Assembly (NCBI GenBank): GCA_035540895.1 | Contig: DATLFR010000024.1 | Location: 1-36,701, forward strand | Length of the DNA stretch: 36,701 nt | Source of the DNA: Actinomycetota bacterium | Lineage (GTDB): Bacteria > Actinomycetota > JAICYB01 | Direction: 5' to 3' | Part shown: piece after piece, positions 1-28,224 of the stretch | Layout: each line of letters starts with the position of its first letter | Numbering within the stretch: position 1 is the stretch's first letter | Program-made: the position numbers and the translations under genes | Notes under the pieces: model-generated | Told to the model about the DNA's origin: nothing | Seen by the model: only the letters and a program-made list of their open reading frames with translations | Database searches by the model: none

Positions 1-1457
1 TCCCCGCGGAACGCGGCCCGCAGCAGCTTCTTGTCTCCCGGACCTATGAGCTCGCCGGGGTGGCACGCCAGGACGAGCTCAAGCAGTTCGCGGTGCATGA
101 ACGGATAGGACCTGCGCACACCGAGCGAGCTCGCCGCCTCCCAGCCCATCGAGGTGAACTCCGACACCTCCAGGTAGTGCCACAGGCTCCTCCAGGGCGC
201 GTCCTGTGAGACGACCCGGGCCAGGGCGTCCCGTCGGATATCGGTCAGCTCCTCCTGCAGCTCGGGCCGGGTGAAGGAGGGGAGGGTGCGCGGGTAGCCG
301 ATCCGATGAGACGACCTGAGTCGCCGGCGCCGCACGAGCCAGCGGAGGACGTCCCGGTCCCGTCCGGGGAGGCTCTCTCGGTGGCGCAGCAGCTCGATCA
401 GCCCCGTCTCGGCCAGCCAGTCGGAGGTCGTGGAGCCCAGCGACCCCGTCGTCTCGTCGCCCATCTCCCCACCGGTCAGCACACGCACGTCCCCGGAGGC
501 CGTGACGCGGGGCAGGTAGCAGAGGACCGGGTGGGGGACGTGGTACGCGACGGGGGGTGCTTCGTCCAGCACCCGCAGGCGGGCGGAGAGGTCGCCCTCG
601 AACTCGTACCCGGGCTCGATACCTTCCTCGTCGCGCAGCCGCCGCAGCCTGGCCACCTCCTCCTCATAGGACGGCGAGGAGACGGACGGGAGCACCGAGA
701 GGCTCCCGAGATGAGCACCGAGGATCCGTCGCGCTATGAGGGCGAGGAGCGACGAGTCGACACCGCCGCTGAGCGACAGGACGTTCCCCTGTGGGGCGAG
801 ATCCCGTTCGAGCGCGGTGATCAGGCACGTCCGCAGCTGCGACGCGTGCGCCGCGGCGGTCTGGGGATCCGGGCGGGAGACCGACGGGGGCCGCGGATCC
901 CAGTACCGGCGGCGCTCGGCGCTGCGTCCACGCAGCCGGACGAACTCGCCTCGTCGCACGACCGACACCCCGGACAGGAACGTCCGGCCCTCGATCGAAG
1001 CGGGGTGTCCGGTCAGCCACACCGCGTTCTGGAGAGGGTCGAGCCGAGGGTCCGGAAGGTACCGGGCGAAGTAGGTCAGCCTCGTCCCGACCGCCCATCC
1101 GTCCGGGGTCGCCGCCCAGTACGCGGGGACGAGCCCGCCGCACGACCTGACCGCTATCGCGTCGTCCTCTCCGGGAGCCAGCTTCAGGACCCCCACGTCC
1201 CGGTGCCCGCGGGAGCCGAGGACCGTCGGGTCGAGCGGGCCGCCGGACGGGAGCGAGGGCTCGTCGGACTCGAAGACGATCGTGTCCGTGCTCTCGGGTG
1301 GACCGCTCTCGTCGAGCGGTGCCACGGCGACCAGCCAGCCGGCGGGCCCGTCAGAGACCGACGTGACCCCTTCAAGCTGGCGCAGCTTCCGCCGGGCCGG
1401 CTCGCGACGGGCCGGATCGGCTACCTGCACCGCGAAGACGTTGAGCAGGTTCCTCAC
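1..1457 (-). CDS. Lasso peptide cyclase (C protein, asparagine-synthetase-like), 3' end cut by the window
   Basis: It would close the isopeptide (macrolactam) ring of the lasso peptide by adenylating the Asp side chain of the core. In the 485 codons present, residues about 1-200 are a degenerate N-terminal glutaminase-like half without the N-terminal Cys nucleophile, followed by a YWDP motif. The asparagine-synthase half has the ATP pyrophosphatase loop LSLSGGVDSS at about 227-236 and GGEMGDE at about 329-335. The start is GTG, sharing GTGA with the stop of the kinase gene. I see no stop before base 1, so the C-terminal part is missing. Asparagine-synthase enzymes act in other pathways too, but the precursor, B1 and B2 upstream make the lasso role the best reading. 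Confidence 0.88.
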   Translation of the reverse strand, partial: MRNLLNVFAVQVADPARREPARRKLRQLEGVTSVSDGPAGWLVAVAPLDESGPPESTDTIVFESDEPSLPSGGPLDPTVLGSRGHRDVGVLKLAPGEDDAIAVRSCGGLVPAYWAATPDGWAVGTRLTYFARYLPDPRLDPLQNAVWLTGHPASIEGRTFLSGVSVVRRGEFVRLRGRSAERRRYWDPRPPSVSRPDPQTAAAHASQLRTCLITALERDLAPQGNVLSLSGGVDSSLLALIARRILGAHLGSLSVLPSVSSPSYEEEVARLRRLRDEEGIEPGYEFEGDLSARLRVLDEAPPVAYHVPHPVLCYLPRVTASGDVRVLTGGEMGDETTGSLGSTTSDWLAETGLIELLRHRESLPGRDRDVLRWLVRRRRLRSSHRIGYPRTLPSFTRPELQEELTDIRRDALARVVSQDAPWRSLWHYLEVSEFTSMGWEAASSLGVRRSYPFMHRELLELVLACHPGELIGPGDKKLLRAAFRG

Positions 1458-2386
1458 TGCGATCCGTGGAAGCCGTCCTCGACGAGGGCGGCCAGCTCGT
1501 CGAGGTGGTCGTCCCGGTGAAGATCCCCCCACGGCAGGGTGACCTCGTACATGGGCGTGGCGTCGCAGACGGCGGCCAACTGGTCGAGCTGTGAAGTCAG
1601 CATGCCCGGGTCCCGGATGCCCAGGACGCGGGGGATGCGCAGCAGGGTCACCACCGCGTCGGCCGGGGACAGGGGCCGGTATCGCAGGCCCTCGGTCTCC
1701 CGTGAGAGTCGCAGGTAGACGATCGTATCCAGCGGGACCGGCTCCGCGACGGGGGAGCGGCGGTAGCTGACCCTGCCGTCGGCGGTCGACGGAGCGCTGT
1801 CCGCCGAGAGCGCCGGCAGGTATCGGAGCGCGTTCGGCCGGAGCCTGATCTCGGCCGGTCCGGGGTGGCACAACACCTGTGCCCCCCCCACCGAGACCCG
1901 CAGGACGTCGTCGGTCACGAGCTCGGCTCCCCTCTCGCAGAGGGCGGCCGCCGTCGTCGACTTCCCGCCCCCCGACGAGGCCACGAGCGCGACGGTCCTC
2001 CCTCTCACTCGGACGGCGCTCGCGTGGAGCACCGGGTCGTGCTGGGCCAGCATGAAGGACATCACCGTCCCCGTGAAGAGGACCGCGGCCAACCCCTCGG
2101 ACGTCCCCTCCGGGAGATACGCGGTGACGTCGTCGTCACGCCCTACGTGGAACCCTGCGACGTCCGAGAACCGGATGAAGTGGTCGCCGTCCTGCCGGGA
2201 GACCGAGAAGGCGGCCGGCGAGCCGACCTCCGCGATCACCGTCCCGTTGCGGTCCTCGTCGTGCCGGTGAGGTCGGCAAGAGAGCTTGATCCGCCTGTCT
2301 CCCGTCCAGCCGGGCTCGGCGTGGGGCGCCACGAGAGGCAGCGCGGACCGGACGAGGCATCCGTACAGCCTGTAGCTGCCCGTCAT
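1454..2386 (-). CDS. HPr-kinase-like kinase of the lasso cluster (predicted precursor Ser kinase)
   Basis: The 310-aa protein resembles HprK-type kinases found in some lasso clusters, such as paeninodin's, where the enzyme phosphorylates the C-terminal Ser of the precursor. Visible motifs are LHASAV at about 120-125, a Walker A loop SSGGGKST at about 137-144, and LVTDDV at about 157-161, the usual kinase order. The start is ATG at 2386, overlapping the B2 stop as ATGA, and the end overlaps the cyclase start as GTGA, so it is translated in the operon. The precursor in this cluster ends in Ser, which fits. Substrate and phosphorylation are inferred from family and context. Confidence 0.82.
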   Translation of the reverse strand: MTGSYRLYGCLVRSALPLVAPHAEPGWTGDRRIKLSCRPHRHDEDRNGTVIAEVGSPAAFSVSRQDGDHFIRFSDVAGFHVGRDDDVTAYLPEGTSEGLAAVLFTGTVMSFMLAQHDPVLHASAVRVRGRTVALVASSGGGKSTTAAALCERGAELVTDDVLRVSVGGAQVLCHPGPAEIRLRPNALRYLPALSADSAPSTADGRVSYRRSPVAEPVPLDTIVYLRLSRETEGLRYRPLSPADAVVTLLRIPRVLGIRDPGMLTSQLDQLAAVCDATPMYEVTLPWGDLHRDDHLDELAALVEDGFHGSQ

Positions 2387-2832
2387 CCTCCGCTTGCGGC
2401 GTGCGTGAGGAGCCTGAAACCCGAGGTGTCGGCCCGAGAGGCGTCCAGGACGTGTCCGTCGATCTCGAGCCACGCGTGCGCGCGGACCCCGTCGGCGCCG
2501 GGAGCCACGCCGATCCTCAGGATCGGGGCGCGGTCGCGGAGCAGATGGCCGAGCACGAGGGACGTGCGCAGGCACTGCGGTCGGCCGCTCAGCCCGAGGA
2601 CCCTCCGTGTCGCCCGGACGCGGCGCCGCTCGGCCTCGTCGAGGTGCGGCCGCTCGCCGGTCTCAGAACCCTCCGGACCGTCACCGAGCCGGAACCCGAG
2701 CCCCTCGACGACGAGGGGCAGGGGGCGCCTGCGCAGTGCGCACTCGACGCGCGCGACCGTGAGGGCCGCTCGGACGGTCGCGCGGCGCTCGGCGCGCGGG
2801 AGCCTTCGGAAGGCTCGGAGGCTCCGTATCAA
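2383..2832 (-). CDS. Lasso peptide B2 protein, transglutaminase-like leader peptidase
   Basis: The 149-aa cysteine protease would cut the leader off the precursor. The pattern is that of the lasso B2 family: Cys87 in the context PQCLRTSL, His119 in RAHAW and an acidic residue at about Asp130 in GHVLD form the expected Cys-His-Asp triad. I place the start at TTG (2832), because TTGA overlaps the B1 stop and no ATG or GTG fits before the conserved region. The length is normal for split B2 proteins that work with a separate B1. It overlaps the kinase start by four bases. Confidence 0.88.
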   Translation of the reverse strand: MIRSLRAFRRLPRAERRATVRAALTVARVECALRRRPLPLVVEGLGFRLGDGPEGSETGERPHLDEAERRRVRATRRVLGLSGRPQCLRTSLVLGHLLRDRAPILRIGVAPGADGVRAHAWLEIDGHVLDASRADTSGFRLLTHAASGG

Positions 2833-3086
2833 GCGGACTCCTCGACCAGCCCGTGGATGAGCAGCTGCTGCCAGGCGACGTCGAGATCGGCCGCCGCGCG
2901 CAGCTCGGTGACGTCGAACTCGGAGACGATCGAGGCGAGGACAGAGGATCGGCTCTCGCCCGCTGCGGCCAGCTGCCAGATGCGGGTGGCCACCCGATTC
3001 AGGGTGAAGTACGTCCCCGACGCGAGGTCGAGGGCGACGGCTTCGGAGCCGACCACCTGATGGGTCACGTGCTCTGGGATCTTCAA
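2829..3086 (-). CDS. Lasso peptide B1 protein, PqqD-like RiPP recognition element
   Basis: The 85-aa PqqD-fold protein should bind the precursor leader and deliver it to B2 and C. It shows the family pattern: a start like MKIPEHV, then VALDLASGTYFTLN, ATRIWQLAA and a C-terminal helix ending HGLVEESA. I chose TTG at 3086 because a perfect AGGAGG (3092-3097) lies five bases upstream. A GTG at 3104 overlapping the RTX stop (GTGA) is in frame and would add six residues. Either way its translation is tied to the RTX gene upstream. It ends in a TTGA overlap with B2. Confidence 0.87.
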   Translation of the reverse strand: MKIPEHVTHQVVGSEAVALDLASGTYFTLNRVATRIWQLAAAGESRSSVLASIVSEFDVTELRAAADLDVAWQQLLIHGLVEESA

Positions 3087-3100
3087 GGGGTCCTCCTGGG

Positions 3101-5839
3101 TCACGGGCAGTTCGTGAGGGCGTTCGTGCCGGCTCCCCCGTCGCACACGTTGGTGCCGGGGCGCCCTCCGTCGAGGTCGTCGTCGCCGTCCCCGCCGAAG
3201 AGCGAGTCGTCTCCGGCGTCCCCACGCAGGACGTCGTTGCCGTCGTAGCCGTGGAGGATGTCGTTCCCGGCGCCACCGTGCAGGACGTTCGCCACGTTCG
3301 TGGCGTGGAGCGTGTCGTTGAAAGCGGAGCCCGACAGGTTCTCAACGCCCGAGAGGTTGTCGGTACCGGCGCCAACCGTCGCCTGAGGACCGACGATGCG
3401 CAGGTCGACGAGGACGCCCGCGGCGGCATGGAAGTAGCTGACCGTGTCGTTCCCGTCGCCGCCCGTCAGCGTGTCGTCGCTCGATCCTCCGTAGAGCACA
3501 TCGTCCCCGCCCTGACCATCGAGGGTGTTGATGCCCTCGTGGCCGAACAGGGTGTCGTTGCCGCCTCCACCGAGGAGCGTGTCGTTGCCTCCCTTGCCTC
3601 GCAGGTTGTTGCTCCCGCCGTCGCCCTTGAGGGTGTCCGCGTGGTCCGATCCGGTGAGGTTCTCGATGCCGCTGAGCTGGTCGGACCCGTCCCCGCCGGT
3701 GTTCTGCGCCGAGGCCACCGCCAGGTCGACGGTCACGCCGCCGGCCGCCTGCGAGTAGCTCGCCGAGTCGATGCCCGCGCCGCCGGTCAGGACGTCGTTG
3801 CCGGGTCCGCCCTGCAGGCCGTCGTTGCCTCCGGCCCCGTCGATCGTGTCGTTGCCGGGTCCGCCCCTGAGCACGTCGTTCCCGGACCCCCCGGTGAGGG
3901 TGTCGTCGTACCGGGAGCCGGTGAGCTGCTCGAAGCCGGACAGCGTGTCCGTGCCGTCCCCGACCGTGTTCTGCGCGCCTCCCACGCCGAGGTTGACGGT
4001 CACTCCCGTCTCGGAGGGCTCGTAGCTGACGTTGTCCACGCCTAGGCCGGCGTCCAGGACGTCGTCTCCCGGCCCGCCCGAGATGGTGTCGTCACCGTCG
4101 GCGCCGCTGATCTGGTCGTTGCCGCCCCGGCCCCACAGGTGGTTCGCGGCCCCGTTGCCGGTGATCGTGTCGTTGCCCTCGCTGCCCGATGCGTGATCGA
4201 TCCCCAGCAGGACGTCGGCCCCCTCGCCCGAGGCGGTGCCGGTAGCGAGGTTCACCGTGACCGGGCCCGTACGACCACGGTGGGTCACGATGTCCTGGCC
4301 GGCGCCGCCGTCCAGGCGGTTGTCCAGGGCGTTCCCGGAGAGGACGTCGTTGAACGCGGTGCCGGTGAGGTTCTCGAAGTTGAGGATCGTGTCGTTGCCG
4401 TCACGGGTGTCCTGCGCGGTGTTCAGCGAGAGGTTGACCCGCACCCCGTTCGGGCGGCCGGCGAAGCTGACCGTGTCGGTCCCCGCCGCGCCGTCGAGCA
4501 CGTTGTTCAGAGCGCTCCCCATGATCGTGTCGTTCCCGGGCGTCGCGATGACGTTCTCCAGGTTCAGGAAGGTCTTGTTGCTGCCTGCGCCGACCGTGTT
4601 CTGGGGGCCGGTCGCGGCCAGGTCCACCGTCACGCCGGACCCCGCGCAGAACGAGAGCGTGTCCGCACCGGGAGCGCCGTCGATCCGGTTGTTGCTCTCT
4701 GTGCCGGTGGCGATGGTGTCGGGTCCGTCCGACCCGATCAGGTTGAGGATCCCGGTGAAGGTGTCGGAGCCGTCCCCCGTGGCCGTCTGGGTGCAGAGGT
4801 TCGCGCTGACGGGCCCCGGACGCTCGGCGTAGGAGACGATGTTGACGGCGCCGGACCCCCCGGCCGTGAAGACGTCGTTGCCGGGCCCGCTCTGGAACAC
4901 GTTCGTGATGCCGGCTCCCGACTGACCGATGATGTCGGCTCCTCCCGGTCCGCCCTGGAAGCCGTTGCAGCTCGCCTTCACCGCGTCGTTGCCCTCCTCG
5001 GTGGCATTCACCGAGTAGTCCGTCCCCAGGTTCGCCTGGAAGCGGTTGTTCAGGTGACCGAAGATCGCCACGTCGTTCCCGGTGCCGCAGTCGAGGGTGT
5101 CGTTGCCCTGTCCCCCCCACAGCTTGTCGTCACCCGCGCCTCCGAGGAGCGTCATGTTCCGGGTCGTCCCCACGCGCGTCGCGGTCCCGGAGGCGGGAGC
5201 GGTCGCGGTGAAACCGCCCTCGCCCCCGATGATGTGATCGTTGCCGGCCCCCCCCTGGACGGTGAACTTGGCCTGGGTACCGCCGAGGTTGTGGATGGCC
5301 ATGTCGGATGCGCCGTCGTTGTCTCGGTCCACCACCGTGTAGGTGATGGCGCCGCCGGCGGCCATGCCCAGGCGCGTCTTGCGGGTCTCCGGTGTTGAGT
5401 AGGTCCTGAACGTGAACTCGTCGTTGCCCGACCCTCCGTTCACGTTCACCGCTATCAGCTGGTTCGTGGAGCTGTTGCGGAGAGGGTGGGTCGACTCGCT
5501 TATGTCGAGGTACTGGGTCGAGTTCTCGCCCTGCACGTTGATCGTGGTCGTGTTCGCCAGGGTCGCGGTCCCGCACTGCTGGAACGTCGTGGGGGGCGTC
5601 CAGTTGTTGCCGCTCTTCCCCCAGATGCCGAACTGGATCACCGACCCGTCCGTCTGGACCGTGACGCCCTCGTTCCCCGCGTTCAGGGATACCGTGACCG
5701 TTGAGCCGGCGATGCCGCAGGTGACGGCGGCCGAGACGGGGATCGACGGAAGAGACGACGCGAGCATGAACACGAGGCTCATCCCCGCCAGGAGTGCTGC
5801 CTTCTGGACGCGCGTGACGCTAGAGGATCTGCCAGACAT
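3101..5839 (-). CDS. Secreted RTX-type calcium-binding repeat protein inside the lasso operon
   Basis: The 912-aa exported protein has a signal peptide at about 1-37 (hydrophobic stretch, then VSA/A). From about 135 to the end it carries many glycine/aspartate nonapeptides of the RTX type (GGxGxDxLx) that normally fold as a calcium-loaded beta-roll. They are interleaved with about six longer modules of the form GVTVDLA...AQNTVGDGTD...LSGxENLTGS, near 402, 465, 526, 612, 701 and 808. The end is Cys-containing (CDGGAG...NCP). It lies 38 bases after the precursor gene and overlaps the B1 start region, so it belongs to the lasso transcript. RTX proteins are not a standard lasso component; a role in binding, export or storage is only inference. 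Confidence 0.9.
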   Translation of the reverse strand: MSGRSSSVTRVQKAALLAGMSLVFMLASSLPSIPVSAAVTCGIAGSTVTVSLNAGNEGVTVQTDGSVIQFGIWGKSGNNWTPPTTFQQCGTATLANTTTINVQGENSTQYLDISESTHPLRNSSTNQLIAVNVNGGSGNDEFTFRTYSTPETRKTRLGMAAGGAITYTVVDRDNDGASDMAIHNLGGTQAKFTVQGGAGNDHIIGGEGGFTATAPASGTATRVGTTRNMTLLGGAGDDKLWGGQGNDTLDCGTGNDVAIFGHLNNRFQANLGTDYSVNATEEGNDAVKASCNGFQGGPGGADIIGQSGAGITNVFQSGPGNDVFTAGGSGAVNIVSYAERPGPVSANLCTQTATGDGSDTFTGILNLIGSDGPDTIATGTESNNRIDGAPGADTLSFCAGSGVTVDLAATGPQNTVGAGSNKTFLNLENVIATPGNDTIMGSALNNVLDGAAGTDTVSFAGRPNGVRVNLSLNTAQDTRDGNDTILNFENLTGTAFNDVLSGNALDNRLDGGAGQDIVTHRGRTGPVTVNLATGTASGEGADVLLGIDHASGSEGNDTITGNGAANHLWGRGGNDQISGADGDDTISGGPGDDVLDAGLGVDNVSYEPSETGVTVNLGVGGAQNTVGDGTDTLSGFEQLTGSRYDDTLTGGSGNDVLRGGPGNDTIDGAGGNDGLQGGPGNDVLTGGAGIDSASYSQAAGGVTVDLAVASAQNTGGDGSDQLSGIENLTGSDHADTLKGDGGSNNLRGKGGNDTLLGGGGNDTLFGHEGINTLDGQGGDDVLYGGSSDDTLTGGDGNDTVSYFHAAAGVLVDLRIVGPQATVGAGTDNLSGVENLSGSAFNDTLHATNVANVLHGGAGNDILHGYDGNDVLRGDAGDDSLFGGDGDDDLDGGRPGTNVCDGGAGTNALTNCP

Positions 5840-5877
5840 CGGACCTGCCCTTCGCTCTGTGGCCGTCGAGGGATGCT

Positions 5878-6072
5878 TCAGCTGATGCCCATCGGGAGGA
5901 TGCCGCCGCCTTGAGCGTCGGACCCGAGGACGTCGTCGCCGCCCCTGGTGATCTCGATCAGGCTCCCGAGGACGGTCACGGCCGGAGCCTCGTAAGGCAG
6001 TTTCTGGCTCGATGCGACGGGGGTCGCGTCGGTCCCGGCGCGCGCGAGCGCGCCGTCACTGGCGTCGTGCAT
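5878..6072 (-). CDS. Lasso peptide precursor (A), 64 aa
   Basis: The leader (1-43) carries the lasso recognition signature YxxPxVxxxGxxxxxT: Tyr27, Pro30, Val32, Gly36 and Thr42. Thr42 is the usual penultimate leader residue, so the core is residues 44-64 (21 aa). The core begins with Gly and has Asp at core position 9, giving a nine-residue ring GGDDVLGSD. The tail ends LPMGIS with a C-terminal Ser, the residue a cluster kinase would modify. There is no Cys, so it would be a class II lasso peptide. The start ATG at 6072 has a modest GGGTGG upstream; longer in-frame starts give an arginine-rich extension unlike a leader. It is the first gene of the operon. Confidence 0.9.
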   Translation of the reverse strand: MHDASDGALARAGTDATPVASSQKLPYEAPAVTVLGSLIEITRGGDDVLGSDAQGGGILPMGIS

Positions 6073-6374
6073 CAGTACCACCCTTCTGCTCGTTGCCCGC
6101 GTCGCTGGTCGCCCGGTGACCGCGCGCGGTGATGGGGGAATGTTTCGGCGTCCCCTGCACGTCCCCTGCCAGGGCGATCTGGGCATTCCGCCCCCCCGTC
6201 GGGGGATGCAGCGACCAGTTCGGGGGATATCGGACCGGGAAGGAGGGATCGGTGGCCCGGCGGAGAACTAGCCCGCAGTGGCCTAGGACTGGGGGAAGCA
6301 AGGGGCCACGCCGGGATGCTGGGCAAACTCCCGGTTGTCGTCGTTGACGTCGATCCACGAGCTGGGGGTTCTAC
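6073..6374. other. Divergent intergenic region between the lasso operon and the 6375 gene
   Basis: I see no gene here. It should hold the lasso operon promoter (leftward) and the promoter of the gene at 6375 (rightward). Visible structure is a tandem 11-base repeat CGTCCCCTGC(A/C) at 6149-6159 and 6160-6170, and five G5 tracts at 6134, 6201, 6222, 6291 and 6364. I could not assign a convincing -35/-10 pair. Confidence 0.5.
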
Positions 6375-7898: not shown

Positions 7899-8177
7899 TC
7901 AGGCCCTCATGACGAGTTCGGCGCCGTCCTCCGTGGACTGGGCGTCCAGGACGGCCTCCGCGAGGACCTCCTCGAGCTCGCTCTCGACGCACACGGTGAC
8001 GCCGGACCGTTCCAACCGGGCGTCCCACGGGGATGGCTCCTCCGTGAACGCGAGGGCCAGGGCTACCTCCCCCTCCGCCGTGTGCGTGCGCTGGATGCGC
8101 AGGGCGGCGTCACGCGGCGCGCCGACCTGCTCACGGATCGAGACTATGACCGCGGCAGCGGCCTCGGTGACCTGCAT
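7899..8177 (-). CDS. Small HesB/IscA-like protein lacking the cluster-binding cysteines
   Basis: The 92-aa protein resembles the actinobacterial HesB-like group of the A-type carrier fold: an N-terminal helix starting VTEAAAAVI, a central LRIQRTHT...VALALAF strand region and a C-terminal V(L)DAQSTEDGAELV strand. The CxC end used by IscA/SufA to hold Fe-S clusters is missing; the only Cys is in VTVCVE. The function is unknown. It has a good ribosome site (AGGAGG). It sits back to back with sufB, which hints at an iron-sulfur link, but that is inference. Confidence 0.65.
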   Translation of the reverse strand: MQVTEAAAAVIVSIREQVGAPRDAALRIQRTHTAEGEVALALAFTEEPSPWDARLERSGVTVCVESELEEVLAEAVLDAQSTEDGAELVMRA

Positions 8178-8242: not shown

Positions 8243-8257
8243 TCCACAGCCTGTGGA
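8243..8257. repeat. Short perfect inverted repeat upstream of sufB
   Basis: TCCACAG, one base, CTGTGGA: a 7-bp perfect palindrome 26 bases before the sufB -35 box. It may be an operator or a small hairpin; no known protein site is matched. Confidence 0.45.
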
Positions 8258-8262
8258 GACTT

Positions 8263-8278
8263 TGTGAACGATTTCACA
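8263..8278. promoter_or_regulatory. CRP/FNR-type palindrome upstream of sufB
   Basis: TGTGA-N6-TCACA matches the CRP consensus exactly. It lies directly upstream of the sufB -35 box, with its centre about 47 bases before the expected start of transcription, a position where such regulators often act. A weaker copy (TGTGA-N6-GCACG) sits at the same place before sufD. Confidence 0.65.
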
Positions 8279-8282
8279 GGCA

Positions 8283-8311
8283 TGGACGGATTTAGCCAAC
8301 GCCGATAGGAT
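8283..8311 (+). promoter_or_regulatory. sufB promoter with conserved spacer element
   Basis: The -35 box TGGACG (8283-8288) and -10 box TAGGAT (8306-8311) are 17 bases apart. The spacer contains GATTTAGCCAAC. The block from 8283 to 8314 matches the sufD promoter region at 29 of 32 bases, so the spacer is probably an operator and not random filler. Confidence 0.7.
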
Positions 8312-8345
8312 TTACTAGGACACGGCAAGAGAGGACACGGCTCCC

Positions 8346-9758
8346 ATGGCGAAGACCCCCCTTGAGATAGACCCCCAGGGCTCCTACGAGCAGCGTTGGG
8401 GCTGGCACGACCCAGAGAACTACGTCTTCAAGCCCTCGAAGGGGATCGACCAGACGAAGGTCGAGGAGATCTCCTTCATGAAGTCCGAGCCGAAGTGGAT
8501 GCGCGACTTCAGGCTGAAGTCCTTCGAGCGATACGTCCGTCGGCCGATGCCGAACTGGGGAGCCGATCTGTCCGGCATCGACTTCGACGACATCTACTAC
8601 TTCCTCCGCGCGACCGACAAGCCCGGCCGCACGTGGGACGAGGTGCCGGCCGATATCAAGAACACGTTCGACCGCCTGGGGATCCCCGAAGCCGAGCGCG
8701 AGTACCTGGCCGGTGTCTCGGCCCAGTACGAGAGCGAGAGCGTCTACCACTCCGTGCAGGAGTCGCTGACGAAGCAGGGCGTCATCTTCATGGACATGGA
8801 CTCGGCCATCCGCGAGGTGCCGGAGCTCGTCCAGAGGTACTGGGCCACGGTGATCCCTCCGAACGACAACAAGCTCGCCGCCCTCAACTCGGCCGTGTGG
8901 TCCGGCGGCTCCTTCATCTACGTCCCCCCGGGCGTGAAGGTCGACGTGCCGCTGCAGGCCTACTTCCGCATCAACGCGGAGAACATGGGCCAGTTCGAGC
9001 GCACGCTGATCATCGCCGACGAGGGCTCGTACGTTCACTACGTGGAGGGATGCACGGCGCCTGCCTACACGTCCGCGTCGCTGCACTCGGCCGTGGTCGA
9101 GCTGATCGCGCTGCCCCACTCCCGGATCCGCTACACCACGATCCAGAACTGGGCGGGTAGCGTCTACAACCTGGTCACGAAGCGCGCGGTCGCCCACGAG
9201 AACGCCGTCGTGGAGTGGGTCGACGGCAACATCGGGTCCAAGGTCACGATGAAGTACCCCGCCGTGGTGCTCGCCGGACGGAAGGCGCACGGAGAGGTGC
9301 TGTCCCTCGCGATGGCCAACCGCGGCCAGCACCAGGACACGGGAGCCAAGATGACCCACGCGGCTCCCGAGACGTCGTCCACGATCATCTCGAAGTCCAT
9401 CTCGAAGGACGGGGGCCGGACGTCGTACCGCGGCCTCGTGAAGGTCGAGGAGGGCGCCTACAAGAGCCGGTCGAACGTGGTCTGCGACGCGCTCCTGATC
9501 GACGACGAATCGATCTCGGACACCTACCCCTACATGGACATCCGCGAGGAGGACGTCTCCATCGGCCACGAGGCCACCGTGGCCCGCATCGGCGACGACC
9601 AGATGTTCTACCTGCAGAGCCGCGGGATCCCCGAGGCCGAGGCGGCCGCGATGATCGTGCGCGGGTTCATCGAGCCGATCGCCAAGTCGCTCCCTATGGA
9701 GTACGCGGTCGAGTTGAACCGGTTGATCGAGCTCGAGATGGAAGGCTCGGTCGGCTAG
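8346..9758 (+). CDS. sufB: Fe-S cluster assembly scaffold SufB
   Basis: The 470-aa protein is the scaffold subunit of the SufBCD complex, on which sulfur from SufS/SufU and iron are assembled into clusters in the cytoplasm. It is recognised along its whole length: the early [12 protein letters not shown] region, [22 protein letters not shown] in the middle, and the C-terminal [24 protein letters not shown] block. The length is normal and no intein is seen. It stands alone, about 14 kb from sufD, with its own regulated promoter and a terminator behind it. Most actinobacteria keep sufB next to sufD. Confidence 0.97.
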
Positions 9759-17221: not shown

Positions 17222-18181
17222 GTGTTCACTTGGACGATGCTCCGGCTCGTCGGCCTGCTCACCGCCCTGGTCATCACGGCATGCACTCAGGCCCGAACCC
17301 CGTCGCGCCCGACCGCGAACCCCTCTCCCACGGTCGTGGCCGGTCCGGCCACCACGGCCCCCGAGCCGTCGGTGGCCCCGGAGCCGACCCCTCGCCGGAC
17401 CATCGCCCCCGACCGCTTGACCTTCGCGGTGATCGGCGACTTCGGGACCGGCGACGACCCGCAGCTGCGGATCGCGTCGGCTCTGCGCGCACGGAGGTCC
17501 GGGCTCGACGCGCTCGTGACCACGGGGGACAACATCTACCCCGACGGGCACCCAAGGAGGTTCGAACGGGCGTGGCACGGTCCGTACGGATGGGTGGAGG
17601 AGGCCGGGCTCGAGGTGGTCGCATCGCTCGGCAACCACGATGTCCAGACGGACGGCGGCCGCCCGGTGATGCAGCTGATGGGGATGCCCGCCCGGTGGTA
17701 CGAGCGCGAGCTCGGACCCGTCCGGTTCTTGGTCCTGGACGCGAACCGCCCGCACGACCCCGAGCAGCTGCGCCACCTGCGCGCGGCGCTCGCCGCGCCG
17801 TCAGCCGCCTGGACCGTCCTCGTCTTCCACCAGCCGGTTCACAGCTGCGGACGCCACGGGAGCACGCCGGCCCTGCGCGCTGCGTGGGAGCCCGTGATAC
17901 GGGAGGGCGGGGCGGACCTGGTCCTGAACGGGCACGACCACAACTACCAGCGTTTCGCGCCGATCGACGGTGTGCCCTACGTGGTGACCGGGGGCGGCGG
18001 AGCCGGCCTCTACCCGGTCGGCGGGTGTCCCGAGGGAACCCCGGCCCCGGAGGCCGCAGCCGTGACCCACCACTACCTGTGGGTGACGGCGACGCCCGGG
18101 TCGCTGGAGCTGGAGGCGGTCGACGCGAGCGGGTCCGTCTTCGACAGCTGGACCCGCTCGCGTGAACGCGCGGCCGCCTGA
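17222..18181 (+). CDS. Lipoprotein metallophosphoesterase (purple acid phosphatase-like)
   Basis: The exported phosphatase has a lipoprotein signal ending at LVITAC (Cys is about residue 21), then a Pro/Thr-rich linker (to about 60), then a calcineurin-like domain. Metal-binding motifs are in order: GDFGTG, GDNIYPDG, GNHD, an HQPVHS and GHDHNYQR. It would sit on the outer face of the cytoplasmic membrane and hydrolyse phosphate esters. The start is GTG 17222 or ATG 17237; both give a valid signal. It is convergent with the FG-GAP gene, two bases apart. Confidence 0.9.
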   Translation: MFTWTMLRLVGLLTALVITACTQARTPSRPTANPSPTVVAGPATTAPEPSVAPEPTPRRTIAPDRLTFAVIGDFGTGDDPQLRIASALRARRSGLDALVTTGDNIYPDGHPRRFERAWHGPYGWVEEAGLEVVASLGNHDVQTDGGRPVMQLMGMPARWYERELGPVRFLVLDANRPHDPEQLRHLRAALAAPSAAWTVLVFHQPVHSCGRHGSTPALRAAWEPVIREGGADLVLNGHDHNYQRFAPIDGVPYVVTGGGGAGLYPVGGCPEGTPAPEAAAVTHHYLWVTATPGSLELEAVDASGSVFDSWTRSRERAAA

Positions 18182-23506: not shown

Positions 23507-23847
23507 CGCCTGCGGACGGACCGGCCCGCGTGGCGCGCTCCGCCGGACCGCCGGCTGTGAACCCCCCGGCCCGCGTCTGCGCCGGCGCACCGGGCCACAT
23601 GTGGCCGCTTCCGCCGGACCACGCTCGACCCACGGCCCTCCTCGCGCGTGCGCCGGCGCGTCCGGCCGCAGCCGCCCCCGATCCCCCGTCCGGGCGTGAC
23701 GCCGTCGCCGGCTCCCGGCTCCCGCTTGTGAACGGATGCACGACCTGGACGGATTTGGCCAACCTCGATAGGATTTAGAAGCGACCGGGAGCCGCCCACG
23801 GCGTGACCGGGCGGCGGCGCCGGCTCCCCTACCACCACCGAGGTGCC
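23507..23847. other. Intergenic region upstream of sufD
   Basis: Apart from the regulatory block at 23727-23774 described separately, I see no gene or RNA in this stretch. Its first 200 bases are G+C-rich, and the frames there read as Pro/Ala/Arg-rich shadow text. Confidence 0.55.
23727..23774 (+). promoter_or_regulatory. sufD operon promoter block matching the sufB promoter
   Basis: TGTGA at 23727-23731 begins a degenerate CRP-like site (TGTGA-N6-GCACG). It is followed by -35 TGGACG (23746-23751) and -10 TAGGAT (23769-23774), 17 bases apart. The spacer contains GATTTGGCCAAC, in which TTGGCCAA is palindromic. From the -35 box on, 29 of 32 bases equal the sufB promoter. Confidence 0.7.
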
Positions 23848-25128
23848 ATGACCGCGACGACCACCTACACCGATCCGCAGTGGGTCTCCGACCTGCGGCG
23901 ACGAGCCGCCGAGGCCCGGGACCAGGCCGTCTACCCGTCCGGGCGGGAGGAACACTGGCGTTTCACCGACGTGTCCTTGCTCCGCCCGGAGCTCTACGAC
24001 GCGACGCCCGCCGAGAGCGACCGCACCACGACCCCAGGGAAGGCGACCTCCGCGCTCGAGCTGTCCGGGCTCCAGTCGGCGGGTCGCGCGATCCACACCG
24101 ACGCGTCGCTCGCCGAGCTCACGCTCTCAGACGAGGCGATGTCCAAGGGCGTCGTCTTCAAGCCGCTCGGCGAGGCCGTCCAGACGCATGCCGACGTCCT
24201 CGAGCCGCGGCTCGGCTCCCTGGTCGGCGCCAGCGACACCTTCACGTCCTGGTCGCTCGCCGACTGGCGCGGCGGGATGTTCCTGTACGTCCCCCGCGGG
24301 GTCTCGCTCACGGACCCGATCCAGGCCCTGCACTGGATCGACGCGGCGGGCACGGTGGTCCAGCCCCGGACCGTCGTCGTCGTGGAGGAGGACGCTCGCG
24401 TCGTCTTCAACGACCTATACGCCTCCAACGACCTGGACCGTCCCACGCTCGCCATGCCCACCGTCGAGCTGTTCGTGGGGCGGGGGGCCAACGTCGGCTG
24501 GGTCACCTGGCAGGACTGGGGATCGGGCGTCCGGCACCTGGCGCACGTGAAGGCGCAGCTCGACCGGGACGCGACCCTCAACACGCTGCTCGTGACGCTC
24601 GGCGGCGACTTCAGCCGGACGACGAAGGAGTGCGTCCTGGCCGGCGAGGGAGCCGAGAGCTACATGTACGGTCTGTACTTCCCGCACGGCGAGCAGCGCT
24701 TCGAGCACTGGACGGTCCAGGACCACGCGAGTCCCAACACGACGTCCGACCTGCTGTACAAGGGCGCGCTGACCGACACCTCGCAGGCCGTCTACTACGG
24801 GACGATCGTCGTCCGGCCGGGCTCGGCCAAGACGAACGCCTACCAGGCCAACCGGAACCTGACCCTGTCTCCGAGGGCGCGCGCGCTCACGAACCCGCAG
24901 CTCGAGATCCAGAACAACGACGTCCGGTGCACGCACGGCGCCACCGTCGGACAGATCGACGAGGACCACCTCTTCTACATCCAGAGCCGCGGCGTCCCCC
25001 GCGACGAGGCGGAGCGACTCGTCGTGTTCGGGTTCTTCAACGAGGTGCTCGAGCGCGTCACGTGGTCGGGCATGCACGAGCGGCTCGCCGAGGCGATCCG
25101 TCACAAGATGCTGGGAGCCGACCTGTGA
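23848..25128 (+). CDS. sufD: Fe-S cluster assembly protein SufD
   Basis: The 426-aa partner of SufB in the SufBC2D complex is needed for iron entry and cluster formation. Its C-terminal block NDVRCTHGATVGQIDEDHLFYIQSRGVP is the family hallmark. The beginning EEHWRFTDVSLLRPELYDA is also typical of SufD and not of SufB. The start ATG has GAGG close upstream. It is the first gene of the operon and shares a GTGA overlap with the Rieske gene. SufB itself is encoded 14 kb away. Confidence 0.96.
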   Translation: MTATTTYTDPQWVSDLRRRAAEARDQAVYPSGREEHWRFTDVSLLRPELYDATPAESDRTTTPGKATSALELSGLQSAGRAIHTDASLAELTLSDEAMSKGVVFKPLGEAVQTHADVLEPRLGSLVGASDTFTSWSLADWRGGMFLYVPRGVSLTDPIQALHWIDAAGTVVQPRTVVVVEEDARVVFNDLYASNDLDRPTLAMPTVELFVGRGANVGWVTWQDWGSGVRHLAHVKAQLDRDATLNTLLVTLGGDFSRTTKECVLAGEGAESYMYGLYFPHGEQRFEHWTVQDHASPNTTSDLLYKGALTDTSQAVYYGTIVVRPGSAKTNAYQANRNLTLSPRARALTNPQLEIQNNDVRCTHGATVGQIDEDHLFYIQSRGVPRDEAERLVVFGFFNEVLERVTWSGMHERLAEAIRHKMLGADL

Positions 25129-25445
25129 GCGAGTGGGTGCGTGTCGCCTCGGTCCAAGACATCCCGGACGACGAGGCCTTCCAGGTGAAGGCGGGCGGCG
25201 ACCTGATCGCGCTCGTCCGCTACGAGGGCGAGCTCTACGCCGTCTCGGACATCTGCACGCACGAGTACACGCACCTGTCCGACGGGTTCATCGACGGACC
25301 GTGCATCGAGTGCCCGTTGCACGGGGCGATGTTCGACGTCCGGACCGGCGAGGTGAAGGCGCTGCCCGCCACGAAGCCCCTCCGGACGTTCCCGGCCAAG
25401 ATCGACGGCGACGACGTCTACATCCAGATAGGAGACCCCGCATGA
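25125..25445 (+). CDS. Rieske [2Fe-2S] ferredoxin of the SUF operon
   Basis: The 106-aa protein has the Rieske cluster ligands CTH (context DICTHEYTHL) and CPLH (context IECPLHGAMF), two Cys and two His. The length is that of non-heme oxygenase ferredoxins. It sits between sufD and sufC with four-base overlaps at both ends, a placement known in several actinobacteria. A role as electron donor to cluster assembly or repair is likely but inferred. The start is GTG. Confidence 0.93.
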   Translation: MSEWVRVASVQDIPDDEAFQVKAGGDLIALVRYEGELYAVSDICTHEYTHLSDGFIDGPCIECPLHGAMFDVRTGEVKALPATKPLRTFPAKIDGDDVYIQIGDPA

Positions 25446-26224
25446 GCCTTCTCGAGATCCATGACCTGCACGTGACCGTCGAGGACAAGCCCATCCTCCG
25501 CGGCGTCGACCTCGTGGTGGACGAGGGCAAGGTCCACGCGTTGATGGGTCCGAACGGGTCGGGGAAGTCGACGCTGGCGAGCGTCCTGATGGGCCATCCC
25601 GCCTTCGAGATCACGGGCGGACGGATCGTCTTCAAGGGTGAGGACATCACCGAGGACTCCCCGGAGGACCGCGCTGCCAAGGGGGTCTTCCTGGCCTTCC
25701 AGTACCCGGTCGAGGTCCCGGGGGTGTCGGTCTCGAACTTCCTACGCACCTCGATCAACGCCGTGCGCGGCACCGACGTCCCCATACGGGAGTTCATGCA
25801 GCAGCTGCGTGAGGCCATGGAGCTGCTCGGCATGGACCCCGACTTCGCGAAGCGCAGCATCAACGAGGGGTTCTCCGGGGGAGAGAAGAAGCGCAACGAG
25901 ATCCTGCAGCTGGCGCTGCTCCGCCCCGCCCTCGCGATCCTGGACGAGACCGACTCCGGTCTGGACATCGACGCGCTGCGGATCGTGTCCGAGGCCGTGA
26001 ACAAGGTGAAGGGTCCGGACATGGGGATCCTGATCATCACCCACTACACCCGGATCCTGAACTACATCACCCCCGACGTCGTGCACATCCTGCTCGGCGG
26101 TCGGGTGGTGCGGACGGGAGGTCCGGAGCTCGCCCACCACCTCGAGGAGGCCGGGTACGAGGCGATCCGCGCGGAGTACGGTATCGACACGGACGAAGCG
26201 GTGACGGAGAAGGCACAGGGATGA
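25442..26224 (+). CDS. sufC: Fe-S cluster assembly ATPase SufC
   Basis: The 260-aa ABC-type ATPase works in the soluble SufBC2D complex, with no transport role. Walker A is GPNGSGKST, the SufC-specific AFQYPVEVPGVSVSNFLR follows, then the signature FSGGEKKRNEILQLALL, Walker B AILDETDSGLDIDAL and the switch ITHYTRIL. It overlaps both neighbours by ATGA. Confidence 0.97.
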   Translation: MSLLEIHDLHVTVEDKPILRGVDLVVDEGKVHALMGPNGSGKSTLASVLMGHPAFEITGGRIVFKGEDITEDSPEDRAAKGVFLAFQYPVEVPGVSVSNFLRTSINAVRGTDVPIREFMQQLREAMELLGMDPDFAKRSINEGFSGGEKKRNEILQLALLRPALAILDETDSGLDIDALRIVSEAVNKVKGPDMGILIITHYTRILNYITPDVVHILLGGRVVRTGGPELAHHLEEAGYEAIRAEYGIDTDEAVTEKAQG

Positions 26225-27468
26225 CCCTGGACGTGGCGAGGGTCCGCTCAGACTTCCCGGTCCTCGGCCGGGAGGTCAACGGGCGTCCGCTCGTCTACCT
26301 CGACTCGGCCGCGACCTCTCAGAAGCCGCGGTCGGTCATCGACGCGATGACCGAGTACTACGAGCGGTACAACTCCAACGCCCACCGGGGCCTGCACGCG
26401 CTGGCCGCGGAGGCCACCGTCGCCTACGAGGCCGCCCGGGACAAGATCGCCCGGTTCGTCGGGGCTCCCGACGCGCGCGGGGTCGTCTTCACACGGAACA
26501 CGACCGAGGCCATCAACCTCGTGTCCTACGCGTGGGCCCGGCGCCGGCTCGGCCCGGGCGACGAGATCCTCGCCTCGGTGATGGAGCACCACTCCAACCT
26601 CGTCCCGTGGCAGCTCGCCGCGGCCGATACCGGGGCGACGGTGCGCTACATCCCCGTCACCGACGGCGGCGAGCTCGACCTGTCCGACCTCGGGAGCCTG
26701 GTGACCGATCGCACGAAGTTGGTCGCGGTGAGCGGTATGTCCAACGTCTTGGGCACGATCAACGACCTGGGCCCCCTGGTCGAGGCGGCGCGCGCGGTCG
26801 GGGCGCTCGTCCTCGTCGACGGGGCGCAGCTCGTCATGCACACCCCTGTCGCGTTCACGGAGCTCGGCGCCGACCTACTCGCCTTCTCGGCCCACAAGAT
26901 GCTCGGCCCCACGGGGATCGGGTGCCTCGTGGCCCGTCCGGAGCTCCTGGAGAGCATGGACCCGTTCCTGGGCGGCGGCGAGATGATCTCCGACGTGACG
27001 CTCGAGGGTTCGACGTGGGCGGACATCCCGTTCAAGTTCGAGGCGGGGACCCAGGCGATAGCCGAGGCCGTCGGGTTCGGCGCAGCGGTCGACTACCTGA
27101 CCCAGCTCGGCATGGAGGCGGTCCGCGACCACGAGGTCGAGCTGTCCCGGTACGCGCTGAAGGAGCTCGGCTCGGTCGAGGGCGTCGTCGTGTACGGACC
27201 GCGGGAATCGGAGCGACGGGGCGCCGTGTTCTCATTCAACGTGTACGACGACCGCGGAGAGCTGATCCACCCCCACGACGTGGCCACGATGCTCGACCAG
27301 GACGGGATAGCGGTGCGGGCCGGACATCACTGCGCCCGGCCGCTCATGCGGCGTCTGGACGTGCCGGCCACGAACCGCGCGTCGTGCTACGTCTACAACT
27401 CGGAGAGCGACATAGACGCGCTCGTCGAGTCCATCGAGCGCACGAAGCGCTTCTTCATCGGAGGTTGA
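26221..27468 (+). CDS. sufS: Cysteine desulfurase SufS
   Basis: The 415-aa PLP enzyme takes sulfur from cysteine and passes it to SufU. Visible features are YLDSAATSQKP near the start, NAHRGLHALA, VDGAQ for cofactor binding, the PLP lysine in AFSAHKMLGPTG, and the active-site Cys in RAGHHCARPLMRRL. The length is normal. It overlaps sufC by ATGA; sufU follows one base after its stop. Confidence 0.97.
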   Translation: MTLDVARVRSDFPVLGREVNGRPLVYLDSAATSQKPRSVIDAMTEYYERYNSNAHRGLHALAAEATVAYEAARDKIARFVGAPDARGVVFTRNTTEAINLVSYAWARRRLGPGDEILASVMEHHSNLVPWQLAAADTGATVRYIPVTDGGELDLSDLGSLVTDRTKLVAVSGMSNVLGTINDLGPLVEAARAVGALVLVDGAQLVMHTPVAFTELGADLLAFSAHKMLGPTGIGCLVARPELLESMDPFLGGGEMISDVTLEGSTWADIPFKFEAGTQAIAEAVGFGAAVDYLTQLGMEAVRDHEVELSRYALKELGSVEGVVVYGPRESERRGAVFSFNVYDDRGELIHPHDVATMLDQDGIAVRAGHHCARPLMRRLDVPATNRASCYVYNSESDIDALVESIERTKRFFIGG

Positions 27469-27469
27469 G

Positions 27470-27907
27470 GTGTCGGCCGAGGACCTGTACCGAGAGATCA
27501 TCCTGGACCACTACCGGTCGCCGAGGAACAAGCGGCGAGGGGTGGAGGGCGCCATCGACGTGAAGCACGACAACCCGCTGTGCGGCGACGAGCTGCACCT
27601 GGCCGTGGACGTGCGCAACGGCGAGCTGTCCGACGTCGCCTTCGACGGCCGGGGGTGCTCCATCTCCCAGGCCTCGGCGTCGATGATGACGGAGGCCGTC
27701 CGCGGGAGGTCCGTCTCCGACGCCCTGGGCATCGCGGAGACGGTTCGGCTCATGATGCACGGCGAGTCGCCCTCCGACGACCTCGGCGACCTGATGGCGC
27801 TCGAGGGCGTGGCCCGGTTCCCGGTTCGCGTGAAGTGCGCCCTGCTCGCGTGGATGGCGCTGAAGGACGCGCTTGGACGCGTCGACGGACGGGGGGCCCC
27901 CGCATGA
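27470..27907 (+). CDS. sufU: Sulfur-relay protein SufU
   Basis: The 145-aa zinc-containing protein accepts sulfur from SufS. It shows the SufU ligands: Cys and Asp in NPLCGD, Cys in GRGCSISQAS and Cys in VKCALLAW, and the N-terminal LYREIILDHYRSPRNKR. The start is GTG, one base after sufS. The end overlaps sufT by ATGA. Confidence 0.95.
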   Translation: MSAEDLYREIILDHYRSPRNKRRGVEGAIDVKHDNPLCGDELHLAVDVRNGELSDVAFDGRGCSISQASASMMTEAVRGRSVSDALGIAETVRLMMHGESPSDDLGDLMALEGVARFPVRVKCALLAWMALKDALGRVDGRGAPA

Positions 27908-28224
27908 GCGAGGTGCAGATCCGAGAGGAAGAGGTCTGGGAGGCGCTGACCGCCGTCACCGACCCAGAGATCGGAGTCGACCTCGTGAACCTCGGCCTGA
28001 TCTACGGCGTCGAGTCGGACGGCTCCCACGTGAAGGTGCGGATGACGCTCACCTCGATGGGTTGCCCGGCCACGGGGCTGCTGGAGTTCCAGGTGAAGGA
28101 GGCGGTGGGGACGGTCGACGGGGTCGAGAACGTCACCGTCGAGTTCACGTTCGAGCCCGCCTGGACCCCCGACCGGATGACGGAGGAAGGCCGGGACATG
28201 ATGGCCGCGATGGGCTTCTGGTGA
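27904..28224 (+). CDS. sufT: SufT-like MIP18/DUF59 protein
   Basis: The 106-aa DUF59 protein has the family start VWEALTAVTDPEIGVDLVNLGLIYGV and the Cys in TSMGCPATG. In other bacteria SufT helps mature Fe-S proteins. It is the last gene of the suf operon (ATGA overlap with sufU). PaaD, a relative in phenylacetate degradation, is excluded by context. Confidence 0.9.
   Translation: MSEVQIREEEVWEALTAVTDPEIGVDLVNLGLIYGVESDGSHVKVRMTLTSMGCPATGLLEFQVKEAVGTVDGVENVTVEFTFEPAWTPDRMTEEGRDMMAAMGFW

Follow-up and report, generated by a model that had tools for sequence, protein, structure and literature searches.

The window, by which we mean the whole 36,701-nucleotide stretch analyzed here, carries the suf genes of an actinobacterium in two parts (Table 1). 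sufB stands apart, and a second cluster begins with sufD, with which the genes for a Rieske-type ferredoxin, SufC, SufS, SufU and a SufT-like protein are probably cotranscribed, as judged from their spacing. For comparison, the window's class was represented by three genomes belonging to three genera, namely that of the window (G000), G001 and G002. The minus strand of the window carries genes resembling a lasso-peptide cluster at 1454-6186, of which PqqD was the only member confirmed by its Pfam score, a 912-residue open reading frame at 3101-5839 with 12 stretches of RTX-type calcium-binding repeats (Pfam HemolysinCabind), and, divergent from sufB at 7899-8177, a 92-residue open reading frame with no Pfam match, which, from its size and position, may encode a small accessory protein.

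Table 1. Coordinates of the suf genes, promoter blocks, proposed operators and other features
Feature	Position	Strand	Details
HPr-kinase-like gene	1454-2575	-	Lasso-like region
Transglutaminase-like ORF	~2383-2860	-	Lasso-like region
PqqD	2829-3146	-	Lasso-like region; over its Pfam cut-off
Precursor-like ORF	5878-6186	-	Lasso-like region
Block at sufB	8283..8314	+	-35 TGGACG 8283-8288, -10 TAGGAT 8306-8311; kept in G001 and G002
Proposed operator at sufB	8290..8314	+	Half-sites ATTTAGCCAAC 8290-8300 and GATAGGATTTA 8304-8314; imperfect dyad
sufB	8346..9758	+	ORF, ATG at 8346; product 86% identical to SufB of G001
Metallophosphoesterase gene	17222..18181	+	Pfam Metallophos
Block at sufD	23746..23777	+	-35 TGGACG 23746-23751, -10 TAGGAT 23769-23774
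Proposed operator at sufD	23753..23777	+	Half-sites ATTTGGCCAAC 23753-23763 and GATAGGATTTA 23767-23777
sufD	23848..25128	+	ORF, ATG at 23848; product 63-65% identical to SufD of G001 and G002
Rieske-type ferredoxin, sufC, sufS, sufU, sufT-like	25131..28224	+	ORFs, tblastn synteny with relatives; names from homology
sufC	~25442-26224	+	
sufS	26221-27468	+	
sufU	27470-27907	+	
sufT-like	27904-28224	+	
SufR-like gene, window's genome	G000:C65:254-949	-	Not linked to suf
Block-like site at SufR-like gene, G000	C65:1005-1034	-	TCTAGTGACAACCGGAATCGGCTTTACAGG
Block-like site at SufR-like gene, G001			TCTAGAGCCAACGCAGCTGAGCTTTACAGT; best matrix place of locus
Block-like site at SufR-like gene, G002			TCTAGACCCAAGGATCGTTTGATTTACAGC; best matrix place of locus

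The initial annotation had reported 29 identical bases out of 32 between the promoters of sufB and sufD, from the -35 through the -10 element, and direct comparison of the sufB block TGGACGGATTTAGCCAACGCCGATAGGATTTA with the sufD block TGGACGGATTTGGCCAACCTCGATAGGATTTA confirmed this. Both promoters have the same layout, in which the two elements are separated by a 17-nt spacer, and their common sequence is TGGACGGATTTRGCCAACNYCGATAGGATTTA. Under an independent-base model, about 9e-9 such matches would be expected for a pair of promoters and 9e-4 over the window as a whole, and sequence identity drops at the block edges. The core GATTTRGCCAAC has two matches in the entire 2.64-Mb genome, at sufB and sufD only, and the reversed control has none, so that the genome-wide search proposed in the initial annotation found the motif not to be abundant elsewhere. 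The feature had originally been taken to start at 8263. The block itself was borne out at 8283-8314, but the segment at 8263-8278 is a separate palindrome, TGTGAACGATTTCACA, which is not part of the 32-base block because only TTGTGAACG is found again at sufD, shifted by one base. This palindrome fits the CRP/GlxR consensus TGTGA-N6-TCACA. Another palindrome, TCCACAGCCTGTGGA, is found at 8243-8257, just upstream of the sufB block, and sufD has TTGTGAACGGATGCACG at nearly the same distance; none of these was seen in G001 or G002.

The block was present at all six suf promoters of the class (sufB and sufD in three genomes), and the relatives G001 and G002 thus both have it at both genes. When one mismatch was allowed, the consensus CCAAYNNCGRTAGKATTTA gave exactly two matches in each class genome, always before sufB and sufD, with none for the reversed control, and a genome-wide search for further targets with a model of the six suf sites returned only those six at E<=10. 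All six sites keep the -10 element, CAA and parts of the spacer, whereas the -35 element varies; the best-kept part is TAGKAT, and the spacer motif CCAAY..CGR is also kept. The class block is a poor palindrome, and the frame of the proposed operator was set by the conserved columns of the six sites, with the Acidimicrobiia dyad described below falling in the same frame. The closest named SufB (79%; L024 of G047) is filed under Candidatus Glassbacteria, a name that is probably wrong because this SufB groups with the window's class; in that genome sufB adjoins sufD, the block is missing, and a SufR-like protein was not detected. SufB of G002 (L017:5903-8443, G002:C87) lies in an 851-residue open frame with an extra stretch inside SufB, which fits an intein and is not present in SufB of the window or of G001.

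The distance between sufB and sufD, which the initial annotation had suggested comparing among relatives, is 14.1 kb in the window, 2.1 kb in G001 and 2.9 kb in G002. As all three genomes have the block at both genes despite these differing gaps, the two copies are older than the 14-kb gap. In both the window and G001 a metallophosphoesterase gene (L016:4795-5781 in G001; 49% identity) sits between sufB and sufD, and hence the interval has probably expanded, with each promoter retaining its copy, rather than sufB being relocated. The earlier proposal that sufB was separated from sufD together with its regulatory copy therefore has to be corrected, while the regulatory part of that reading is well supported.

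We scanned 80 sufB loci with a matrix of the six class sites. About 20 Acidimicrobiia carry a palindromic element upstream of sufB, TTGTTACTAT-N4-RTAGGAGAAA, which is related to the class block and forms a perfect palindrome in one locus (L038), AATTACCACTAT-N4-ATAGTGGTAATT. With at most one mismatch, each genome has close to a single match to this dyad, which is then the one at sufB; extra matches occur in G009 and G025, one between DNA glycosylase-like genes and one inside a reading frame. The class matrix alone placed its best site upstream of sufB in 17 of the 22 dyad loci versus 1 of 20 others, a comparison that serves as support and not as an independent test, some loci having first been spotted with the same matrix. 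The dyad also precedes sufD in 6 of the 12 loci tested, where it was the first or second best site of the locus each time. G004 provides another, separate example of a divided suf system in which every part has an element: its only two genome-wide dyads are at sufB and directly before sufC, 20 kb apart. A variant with a 2-base instead of a 4-base center, TTACTAT-CC-ATAGTAA, precedes sufB in Acidimicrobiaceae RS349 (L070, 5840-6000), which also has a dyad before sufD (8304); a search for a SufR-like protein there found none.

Mycobacterial SufR, used as a query, brought out a protein group whose members are about 240 residues long and have an N-terminal ArsR-type winged helix (PF12840 HTH_20 over its cut-off) and three C-terminal cysteines, candidate ligands of a [4Fe-4S] cluster, that are invariant in all 39 aligned rows, mycobacterial SufR included. 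The cysteine pattern is not exclusive to the group, as it also occurs in paralogues whose role was not assigned. In most genomes examined, the gene stands apart from suf; in L025, a member is divergent from sufB on the same contig. With the group profile, every one of the three class genomes yielded a single strong copy, and a strong copy was also found in 20 of 23 dyad genomes versus 3 of 22 others (Fisher p 8e-7). No strong copy was found by this search in the dyad genomes G005 (a single-cell genome), G012 and G013. The three regulator-bearing "others" turned out to have dyad-like sites, a clear one in L093 (31 bits, beyond the first cut-off) and variants in L103 and L025, but as these were noticed afterwards, the counts above were left as first made. 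Of 6 independent pairs on the SufB tree, 5.0 have regulator and dyad going together and 0.1 have them going against each other, with a median p of 0.06 that is limited by the number of such pairs.

We rejected the possibility that these proteins are orthologues of known SufR. They are about 25-34% identical to it, their best scores against TIGR02702 (SufR_cyano) were 11.8 and 27.2 bits versus a cut-off of 178.8, none in the class genomes exceeding it (mycobacterial SufR itself was not scored), and in a tree without cyanobacterial SufR they fall in a different starred clade from mycobacterial SufR. Their operator is also not the CAAC-N6-GTTG element, for in the block the sequence six bases after CAAC is AGGA. 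The protein probably works like SufR, by analogy, and is better named a SufR-like sister group.

Sites resembling the block also precede the regulator gene. Within the 8-9 kb locus, the suf matrix scores best just before this gene in each of the three class genomes, and 11 of 22 Acidimicrobiia loci have a dyad upstream of it, the other 11 being without a clear one. The promoters of the regulator genes in the class read TTTACA-N17-TAGGCT, TAGGCT and TAGACT. The likeness to the suf block is not due to a common -10 element, because the site overlaps the -35 element of the regulator promoter. Scores this high are expected 3e-5 to 1.4e-4 times per 100 bases; the class sites are nevertheless weak, do not stand out genome-wide but only within their own loci, and, being orthologous, count as about one event. 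As far as sequence goes, an operator is thus found both at suf and at the regulator's own gene, and the regulator seems to control itself as well.

The most likely explanation is that a dedicated suf regulator has the block as its operator, placed over the -10 half of two sigma-70-type promoters, and that this regulator is the unlinked SufR-like winged-helix protein, which would control its own gene and repress when it carries a cluster. Binding, cluster and direction of regulation are modeled here on known SufR (PMC8593673, PMC6034842, PMC11995493). A SufR-like dimer would hold an Fe-S cluster by its three cysteines and bind the block, covering the -10 regions ahead of sufB and the sufD-C-S-U cluster, both of which it would thereby repress; at its own gene it would cover the site overlapping the -35 element, resulting in autorepression. 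If Fe-S clusters became scarce or were damaged, the apo protein would release the DNA and all three would be derepressed, inducing both halves of the split SUF system together. The initial proposal of an operator for an Fe-S-type regulator is well supported in that the block is suf-specific genome-wide, kept in relatives and related to the Acidimicrobiia palindrome, and in that a three-cysteine SufR-like protein, with the element before its own gene, is linked to it.

Another transcription factor, one that simply happens to be retained alongside the SufR-like protein, could use the block instead. We consider this rather unlikely: it would account for the dyads of G005, G012 and G013 and the dyad-like sites of L070, where no SufR-like protein was detected, and binding of the block by the SufR-like protein is itself a prediction from sequence, but the element lies before the SufR-like gene in many genomes, which is the usual mark of autoregulation, and for G005 and G012 either the assembly is incomplete or close relatives possess the gene. 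A conserved promoter without an operator, perhaps for a special sigma factor, would agree with a block that spans -35 to -10 and has TAGKAT as its best-kept part. It is quite improbable, however, given that the spacer motif CCAAY..CGR is conserved and the -35 element is not, that no other promoter in the class genomes has the block, that the related element of Acidimicrobiia is a palindrome, and a perfect one in L038, and that the CCAAC part is kept next to a different promoter at the class regulator genes.

Binding by an Rrf2-family regulator, similar to IscR or RisR, was our first candidate, as such proteins control suf elsewhere (PMC9973013) and each class genome has one. It was rejected and we now hold it to be very unlikely. 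Dyad-bearing G005, G007, G008 and G009 have no Rrf2 match, which largely refutes it for Acidimicrobiia; the class orthologue has one cysteine or none rather than three cluster cysteines, no block is found near its gene, and the RisR motif GGAC-N7-GTCC is unlike the block (PMC9973013). The two window copies are more alike than either is to those of the other genera, as would be expected if one gene had recently received the promoter of the other by duplication or gene conversion, with no significance for regulation. This appears largely refuted by G001 and G002 and is extremely improbable, since both sites exist in three genera with different gaps, identity falls at the block edges and related sites occur in relatives outside the class.

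Returning to the SufR-like protein as the regulator, we find it fairly probable, with some reserve, that suf in Acidimicrobiia and in the deep actinobacterial class of the window is regulated by a SufR-like subfamily that is distinct from known SufR and has an operator of its own, and that this operator accompanied sufB, sufD, sufC and the gene for the regulator during the break-up of the cluster. If true, this would answer part of how these deep-branching actinobacteria control their Fe-S pathway, and would be a case where regulatory DNA may keep a broken-up pathway coordinated. As suf control in Gram-positive bacteria without SufR is listed as unknown in a review (PMC8593673), the candidate deserves a test, and two large, mostly uncultured actinobacterial groups now have a candidate for the regulator, together with an operator and a set of defined DNA fragments. 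A limited literature search found no paper on this regulator-operator pair, so that priority is not certain.

Among known systems, the SufR proteins of Synechocystis, Mycobacterium tuberculosis (Rv1460), Streptomyces avermitilis and Corynebacterium glutamicum have the same type of ArsR/DeoR winged helix (PMC6034842, PMC8593673, PMC11995493), and the C-terminal cysteines of the SufR-like proteins align with C203, C216 and C244 of Rv1460. Control of suf, autoregulation and an operator over the -10 region are features of known SufR (PMC6034842, PMC8593673, PMC11995493) that the SufR-like proteins would share, as predicted, but they differ from it in their low identity and TIGR02702 scores, their separate clade, a gene that is mostly unlinked to suf and another operator. 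RisR of Myxococcus xanthus and IscR, both of the Rrf2 family, offer a parallel in Fe-S-sensing suf control with operators over -35 and -10 (PMC9973013), whereas they belong to a different protein family, which is missing from several dyad-bearing genomes, and use a different motif.
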